Part shown: in pieces, positions 17,969 through 22,024 of the stretch
Position numbering within the stretch: position 1 is the stretch's first letter
How the letters are laid out: each line of letters starts with the position of its first letter
NCBI GenBank assembly: GCA_018303185.1
Contig: JAGVYR010000067.1
Location: 1-40,910, forward strand
Length of the DNA stretch: 40,910 nt
Source: Candidatus Woesearchaeota archaeon
GTDB taxonomy: Archaea; Nanobdellota; Nanobdellia; Woesearchaeales; GW2011-AR4
Direction of reading: 5' to 3'
The notes under the pieces: generated by a model
The model's input: the letters and a program-made list of their open reading frames with translations, nothing else
The model's database searches: none
What the model was told of the DNA's origin: nothing
Made by a program: the position numbers and the translations under genes

Positions 17969-18075
17969 GGGGCTGTAGTGTAACTTGGTATCACTCTACC
18001 TTGGGGCAATCCTCAACTCCTTGCAAGGGAGATTCCAGAGTGGTAGCAATCCGTGTTCAAATCATGGCAGCCCCA
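17969..18075 (+). tRNA. tRNA-Pro(GGG) with a 34-nt canonical intron
   Basis: The acceptor stem GGGGCTG/CAGCCCC (17969-17975, 18068-18074) has discriminator A18075. The T-arm is CCGTG-TTCAAAT-CATGG, and the anticodon stem CTACC/GGTAG flanks TTGGGG, giving anticodon GGG at 18003-18005. The intron is 18007-18040, between positions 37 and 38. The bulge-helix-bulge is clear: central helix TTGG/CCAG, 3-nt bulges GGC and AGT cut as GG^C and AG^T, and inner helix AATC/GATT. Confidence 0.92.
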
Positions 18076-21470: not shown

Positions 21471-21609
21471 GCCCTGGTAGTGTAGCCTGGCATGGCACCC
21501 ACTAAAAGGGTGCTGCAGCAACTATCACGCAGCCCTGTCACGGCTGCGACCCGGGTTCAAAACAGCTGGTTATAATCACAGCCAGGTGCTGAAAGTCCCG
21601 GCCAGGGCG
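21471..21609 (+). tRNA. tRNA-Asp(GTC) with two non-canonical introns
   Basis: The acceptor is GCCCTGG/CCAGGGC (21471-21477, 21602-21608) plus G21609. The anticodon arm is uninterrupted: CAGCC-CTGTCAC-GGCTG, anticodon 21537-21539. Intron 1 is about 21499-21528 (30 nt) at 25/26, with central helix ATGG/CTAT and identical CAC bulges on both sides. Intron 2 is 21562-21595 (34 nt) at 59/60, with central helix TTCA/TGAA and bulges AAA and AGT cut AA^A and AG^T; its inner helix is imperfect. Removing both gives a regular cloverleaf with T-arm CCGGG-TTCAAAT-CCCGG. Confidence 0.88.
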
Positions 21610-21626
21610 TTTATTATCACGCTACC

Positions 21627-21759
21627 GGGCCGGTAGCTCAGCCTGGATCCCCGAAGAGGGCGATAGAGCACTGCACTTTTAGCAGGCACTGGTAAATCAG
21701 GATAAACCGAGATGCCGAAGGCAATGCAGTGGTCGCGAGTTCGAATCTCGTCCGGCCCA
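21627..21759 (+). tRNA. tRNA-Lys(TTT) with a 17-nt D-loop intron and a 42-nt canonical intron
   Basis: The acceptor is GGGCCGG/CCGGCCC (21627-21633, 21752-21758) plus A21759, and the T-arm is GCGAG-TTCGAAT-CTCGT. The D-loop is interrupted at 21647-21663. Central helix GCCT/GGGC and bulges GGA and GAT, cut GG^A and GA^T, leave AGCCTGGTA, a standard tRNA-Lys D-loop; the inner helix is very short. The anticodon stem CTGCA/TGCAG encloses CTTTTA with anticodon TTT (21678-21680). Intron 2 is 21682-21723, with central helix CTTT/AAGG, bulges TAG and CAA, and inner helix GGCA/TGCC. Confidence 0.9.
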
Positions 21760-21781: not shown

Positions 21782-22024
21782 ATGAAGAAAAAATTTTCAC
21801 TCGACAAGCATTCGCTCATACCGAAGCACTCAAAGCTCAGCGAGAAGGAGAAAAAGGAGCTTTTTGAAAAATACAGCATTTCTGAGAAGGAGCTTCCGAA
21901 GATGTCAAAGAATGACGCGGCCATCCAGGGCCTTGGAGCGGCGCCGGGAGACATAATCAGGATTACAAGGCAGAGCTATACTGCAGGGGAATCATTTTTT
22001 TACAGGGTTGTTACAAATGTATAA
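21782..22024 (+). CDS. rpoH: RNA polymerase subunit H (Rpb5-like)
   Basis: The 80-residue protein is the archaeal counterpart of the C-terminal domain of eukaryotic RPB5, located near the downstream DNA channel. It contains KHSLIPKHSKLSEKEKKELFEKY and the conserved GAAPGDIIRITRQS. It begins 22 nt after the end of tRNA-Lys, leaving no room for a separate promoter with normal spacing, so a joint transcript with the tRNAs is likely. Its end overlaps the next start by eight nt. Confidence 0.95.
   Translation: MKKKFSLDKHSLIPKHSKLSEKEKKELFEKYSISEKELPKMSKNDAAIQGLGAAPGDIIRITRQSYTAGESFFYRVVTNV

Follow-up and report, generated by a model that had tools for sequence, protein, structure and literature searches.

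Archaeal tRNA introns that lie outside the canonical position 37/38 are known from print: 673 such introns have been described in 217 genomes, with up to three introns per gene (PMC8450103). A review gives a size range of 11–129 nt for archaeal tRNA introns, with medians mostly between 12 and 25 nt (PMC4090602). In Sulfolobus tokodaii, introns with a BHB-like motif in the D-arm of tRNA-Glu were cut in vitro by recombinant EndA, and the one in tRNA-Glu(UUC) is about 16 nt long by the quoted numbering; the exon-intron borders had to be defined biochemically because of repeats at the junction (PMC4307357). The same paper describes the cuts in archaeal introns as placed after the second base of each bulge. 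Like the Woesearchaeota considered here, ARMAN-2, with an epsilon2 EndA, and the crenarchaeal lineages with an (alpha-beta)2 enzyme carry many tRNA introns at diverse positions (PMC12397907, PMC6379350).

D-loop introns, short introns and tRNA genes with several introns are therefore all already in print. No paper on the tRNA introns of Woesearchaeota turned up in a search of the open-access literature; the woesearchaeal paper that was found concerns group I introns in rRNA genes (PMC6125680), and Kaneta 2018, by a review's account a study of the EndA loop with an intron survey, lay outside that search. Crenarchaeota, Euryarchaeota and Thaumarchaeota supplied the training data for the intron models of tRNAscan-SE 2.0, and Woesearchaeota are not named in the text describing them (PMC8450103).

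The tRNA-Lys(UUU) gene described here shares with the published non-canonical introns a position outside 37/38, a BHB motif and the coexistence of introns in one gene (PMC8450103). It shares with S. tokodaii tRNA-Glu a short D-arm intron, and differs in the tRNA and in the lineage (PMC4307357).

Organisation of the tRNA-Lys locus

The window, that is, the whole stretch of 40,910 nucleotides analysed, is part of a contig (C5) of a Candidatus Woesearchaeota genome of 1.62 Mb in 76 contigs, which is 91% complete. The closest named records for its rpoB are mostly Candidatus Woesearchaeota, the top match having 84% identity. The tRNA-Lys gene (positions 21627–21759, plus strand; anticodon TTT) is flanked by a tRNA-Asp gene and by rpoH-rpoB, and the order tRNA-Asp, tRNA-Lys, rpoH, rpoB is repeated in relatives; the name rpoH is presumed from the layout of the archaeal rpo operon. 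The features are listed in Table 1. One of the related loci (L051), deposited as 'Parcubacteria group bacterium isolate NP996', has a woesearchaeal-type rpoB (77% identity) and an archaeal tRNA-Lys gene with an intron, and its title looks wrong.

Table 1. Features of the tRNA-Lys(UUU) locus, in window coordinates
Feature	Position	Strand	Remarks
tRNA-Asp(GUC), neighbour	21471–21609	+	D-loop intron 21492–21521 (30 nt), T-loop intron 21562–21595 (34 nt), none at 37/38
Exon 1, tRNA-Lys(UUU)	21627–21646	+	Acceptor 5' strand, positions 8–9, D-stem 5' strand, D-loop to GG
D-loop BHB central helix, 5' strand GCCT (exonic)	21641–21644	+	Pairs with 21658–21661
D-loop intron, 17 nt	21647–21663	+	20 of 61 tRNA-Lys 5' halves have the exact empty site
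D-loop BHB central helix, 3' strand GGGC (intronic)	21658–21661	+	
Exon 2, tRNA-Lys	21664–21681	+	Remaining D-arm, anticodon stem 5' strand, anticodon TTT, position 37
Intron, 42 nt, canonical position 37/38	21682–21723	+	Central helix CTTT/AAGG
Exon 3, tRNA-Lys	21724–21759	+	Anticodon stem 3' strand, variable loop, T-arm, acceptor 3' strand, A73
rpoH (RNA polymerase subunit H, presumed), downstream ORF	21782–22024	+	By sequence and position

Standard annotation does not recover the gene. ARAGORN reported no tRNA in the whole window and none in the tRNA-Lys precursor alone, and Rfam gave no tRNA in the window at the gathering threshold, while its low-threshold matches there are at chance level; the RF00005 model reached just 13.3 bits when applied to the gene's last 74 nt. 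When both introns are removed, ARAGORN returns a full tRNA-Lys(ttt) of 74 nt. With the D-loop intron kept the call begins within exon 1, and with the canonical intron alone kept a false tRNA-Ala is given.

The intact cloverleaf of the spliced gene argues against its being a pseudogene whose role in the cell is taken by another tRNA-Lys(UUU), and so does the conserved location upstream of rpoH-rpoB. In addition, the 91% complete genome yielded neither another match to the 3' part, with up to three mismatches allowed, nor another anticodon arm of this tRNA; a further copy could be missing from such an assembly, and with this allowed for, the pseudogene reading is extremely unlikely.

Other interrupted tRNA genes were observed in the same genome. 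The tRNA-Asp precursor likewise gave no ARAGORN call, and a full tRNA-Asp(gtc) resulted from removal of both its introns. The central helix is perfect in its T-loop intron (TTCA/TGAA), and that of its D-loop intron contains a C-C mismatch, at which relatives (e.g. L037, L043 and L046) have a paired G. A tRNA-Pro(GGG) gene at 17969–18075 of the window, unseen by both ARAGORN and Rfam, has an intron of about 34 nt at the canonical site. Two tRNA-Arg genes on other contigs (L138 and L139, contigs C39 and C61) carry inserts immediately after the GG of the D-loop, and TAGCKCAGYYTGG is interrupted after GG at three of four places in the genome. These inserts were considered as possible signs of intron transposition between tRNAs, but they look just loosely similar to the tRNA-Lys intron. 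A tRNA-Ala-like gene (L124, contig C64) that follows an apparent 16S rRNA 3' end has an apparent T-loop insert.

The D-loop intron and its site in relatives

The D-loop intron lies immediately 3' of the GG in the D-loop. All four pairs of its central helix are formed between exon and intron, including one G-U pair; the bulges, GGA and GAT, have three nucleotides each, with the predicted cuts after the second base, and the inner helix comprises 2 bp (TC/GA) closing a six-nucleotide loop, CCCGAA. At the 37/38 intron the bulges read from the sequence are TAG and CAA, also cut after the second base. Both introns are therefore strict BHB introns, since helix, bulges and cut positions are as described for archaeal introns. 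The original prediction of a 17-nt D-loop insert with correctly spaced bulges, followed by a canonical 42-nt intron after position 37, with a standard loop once the insert is removed, was thus borne out. A relaxed motif (HBh' or hBH) at the D-loop site was considered and rejected, given the four pairs and the two three-nucleotide bulges.

The insert is very probably a BHB-type tRNA intron of the ordinary archaeal kind, placed non-canonically in the D-loop. The proposed fold of the precursor has exonic GCCT paired with intronic GGGC, which leaves the two bulges on opposite strands. EndA would cut between the second and third base of each bulge, after GG in one and after GA in the other, and the ligase RtcB would join the ends to restore the standard loop AGCCTGGTA; the 37/38 intron would be taken out likewise by EndA and RtcB. 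Cleavage, ligation and the order of these events are predicted from sequence. This reading is based on the motif, on empty sites in relatives that match the junction exactly, on the pairing statistics given below and on the presence of a single gene for EndA and another for RtcB.

For comparison, 81 loci were used (80 fetched with rpoB, and the window), of which 61 gave a tRNA-Lys 5' half and 20 had no pattern match. The D-loop intron is absent from 34 of the 61 halves, among them that of the locus with the closest RpoB found (L031, 84%), and 20 of them have exactly the loop predicted for the spliced window gene. The remaining 27 halves carry D-loop inserts, which fall into two classes. Class A, to which the window belongs, is cut after GG, and class B one base further, with central helix CCTG/CAGG. 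The table counts are 17 for class A and 10 for class B, one class A row (L081) being in fact a class B insert, misplaced because the pattern had stopped too early, and labelled as B for the tree. Full pairing of the central helix is seen in 15 of 17 rows in class A and in 9 of 10 in class B; one insert (L086) has just two of four central pairs in the class A register, and another (L105) is unclear. The insert sequences differ widely between relatives. In class A (17 rows) the inner helices total 71 bp, compared with 9.9 on average and 30 at most after shuffling, and in class B they total 40 bp, compared with 6.4 on average and 20 at most; in neither class did any of 2000 shuffles reach the observed total. 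In one relative (L099) exonic GCTT faces intronic GAGC, a compensatory change that keeps the pairing of the central helix.

These data bear on the possibility that the insert is kept, so that the D-loop of mature tRNA-Lys would be expanded to 26 nt and would tolerate a hairpin. At minimum energy the precursor is folded without the D-loop BHB; instead, ATCCCC and GGG-GAT of the intron pair with each other. When the D-stem is imposed as a constraint, the strict BHB has -6.7 and the intron hairpin -8.1 kcal/mol, a gap of 1.4, so the hairpin is slightly more stable. The short inner helix, of 2 bp, is a further weakness of the splicing reading. Among 16 genes folded, the hairpin was also favoured in, for example, L038, L045, L086 and L090, and the BHB in, for example, L055, L075, L087 and L099. 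Splicing is not refuted by this modelled fold. A strict, in-register BHB recurs with unrelated inserts of 15–95 nt, for which a retained loop would have no need, and more than half of the related 5' halves do without an insert; retention is accordingly very unlikely. In class A introns such as those of L036, L041, L090 and L108, the start, ATTGYCC, can pair with the end, GGGCAAT, and so rival the BHB; this pairing may slow splicing or may be a by-product of shared ancestry.

Removal of the insert without EndA, for example as a self-splicing intron, is scarcely conceivable, since 17 nt is far below the size of any known ribozyme and Rfam found no intron family in the window. In favour of such a route, group I introns do occur in woesearchaeal rRNA genes (PMC6125680). 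A group I intron was rejected here on the length of 17 nt, the lack of a catalytic core and the lack of an Rfam match.

The distribution of the three D-loop states (absent, class A, class B) was mapped on an rpoB tree of 58 of the 61 rows, leaving out two with frame breaks (L107 and L108) and the unclear insert of L105. It takes 18 changes, against a mean of 21.4 for shuffled states, and a number as low was reached in 2 of 200 shuffles. The well-supported (starred) branches force at least seven changes for intron absence and at least five for each of classes A and B. In this quick tree 27 of 55 inner branches are open, so gains and losses of the D-loop intron are not separable.

Introns of tRNA-Lys genes across Woesearchaeota

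Introns were tabulated over the whole tRNA-Lys gene for 56 of the 61 loci, five being below the alignment score. The 56 genes contain 102 introns, and 12 of them have three. They are located in the D-loop (26), at 37/38 (28), on the 5' side of the anticodon stem (15) and in the T-arm (32); the single intron placed elsewhere is probably a misalignment, and these counts retain odd inserts in L074, L079 and L105 that are likely misaligned. The central helix has all four pairs in 86 of the 102 introns, compared with a mean of 4.5 and a maximum of 12 in 1000 rounds of shuffling, the best of several equivalent junctions being taken in the real and the shuffled sets alike. The D-loop intron of the window is one of several that come and go in tRNA-Lys across Woesearchaeota, and it probably has no function beyond being removable.

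The 15 anticodon-stem introns, located after CACCTG and before ACTTTTA, all have a fully paired central helix. They were seen in L031–L038, L041, L045, L090, L097, L100, L107 and L108.

It had been proposed that an intron of 17 nt with an almost absent inner helix is close to the minimum that an endonuclease can use, and this part of the original prediction did not hold. The shortest tRNA-Lys introns in relatives measure 11 nt at 37/38, 13 nt in the T-arm and 15 nt in the D-loop, the last at the site used in the window; introns of 11–16 nt occur among them, and inner helices of 0–2 contiguous bp are common. The size is therefore unremarkable, in agreement with the lower limit in the review (PMC4090602) and with the in vitro cleavage of the S. 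tokodaii D-arm intron of about 16 nt (PMC4307357).

Splicing enzymes of Woesearchaeota

The genome encodes an EndA of 201 aa (contig C19), found as one match each by PF01974, PF02778 and a woesearchaeal profile, and the tRNA ligase RtcB (contig C74, E 5e-171). The best solved relative of this EndA is a tRNA-splicing endonuclease chain, 3iey_A (E 2.7e-39), presumably the catalytic subunit of the Nanoarchaeum equitans enzyme. The presumed catalytic triad residues, Tyr, His and Lys, are each present in all 30 aligned sequences (own and 29 loci).

A second EndA subunit was sought with PF01974 in 39 genomes, with PF02778 in the own genome and with the profile, built from seven woesearchaeal proteins, in 38 genomes. 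No second chain was found in the 91% complete own genome by any of the three, the profile being poor for divergent beta chains: it reached the N. equitans beta chain at 4e-15 and 2zyz_A (PAE0789) merely at E 0.45. The profile matched in 33 of the 38 genomes, exactly once in 30 and twice in three; the second match in G009 is strong and sits at the end of a contig, and the second ones in G026 and G021 are weak, with E 0.003 and E 0.11, respectively. Woesearchaeota may still possess a divergent beta chain.

No CSL or ASL insertion is present between the G and LSL motifs of the N-terminal domain in the woesearchaeal EndA sequences compared. This stretch has 8–9 residues in 24 of 30 EndA sequences parsed by pattern, and the other six show 9–10 by eye. 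Counted from the alignments, it comprises 9 residues in the own EndA, 8 in 1r0v (presumably the A. fulgidus enzyme), 15 in 4fz2 (ARMAN-2) and 18 in 3p1y, which we take to be the published CSL graft. With an apparently single alpha-like chain and no insertion, the woesearchaeal enzyme is unlike the epsilon2 and (alpha-beta)2 systems; that of S. tokodaii is presumably of the crenarchaeal heterotetrameric type. Efficient cutting of relaxed motifs is attributed only to (alpha-beta)2 and epsilon2 enzymes and tied to the CSL/ASL loop in reviews (PMC6379350, PMC12397907). An alpha-only EndA served mainly by strict motifs would be one consistent picture, and the mostly perfect central helices could explain how intron diversity coexists with a single loop-less EndA. 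We tentatively suggest, with more doubt than confidence, that Woesearchaeota have tRNA genes with many and changeable interruptions, served by just one EndA of the alpha type without CSL/ASL, their introns being nearly all strict, as in the tRNA-Lys set, and a minority of relaxed sites, for instance the D-loop intron of tRNA-Asp with its C-C mismatch, still being handled.

The tRNA-Lys gene alone adds one well-supported D-loop intron. Such genes are missed by annotation, as none of the three tRNA genes of the window was reported by ARAGORN or by Rfam at the gathering threshold. The tRNA-Asp and tRNA-Lys genes upstream of rpoH-rpoB offer a natural series in which to follow how introns are gained and lost within Woesearchaeota, a group with many introns at non-standard positions, yet mostly with one EndA gene and no CSL/ASL loop. 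With an apparently single EndA that lacks this loop, Woesearchaeota allow a test of whether loop acquisition and intron diversity are linked. If the suggested combination is true, the diversity of intron positions would be separable from loop-mediated broad specificity, two properties that are treated together in print.
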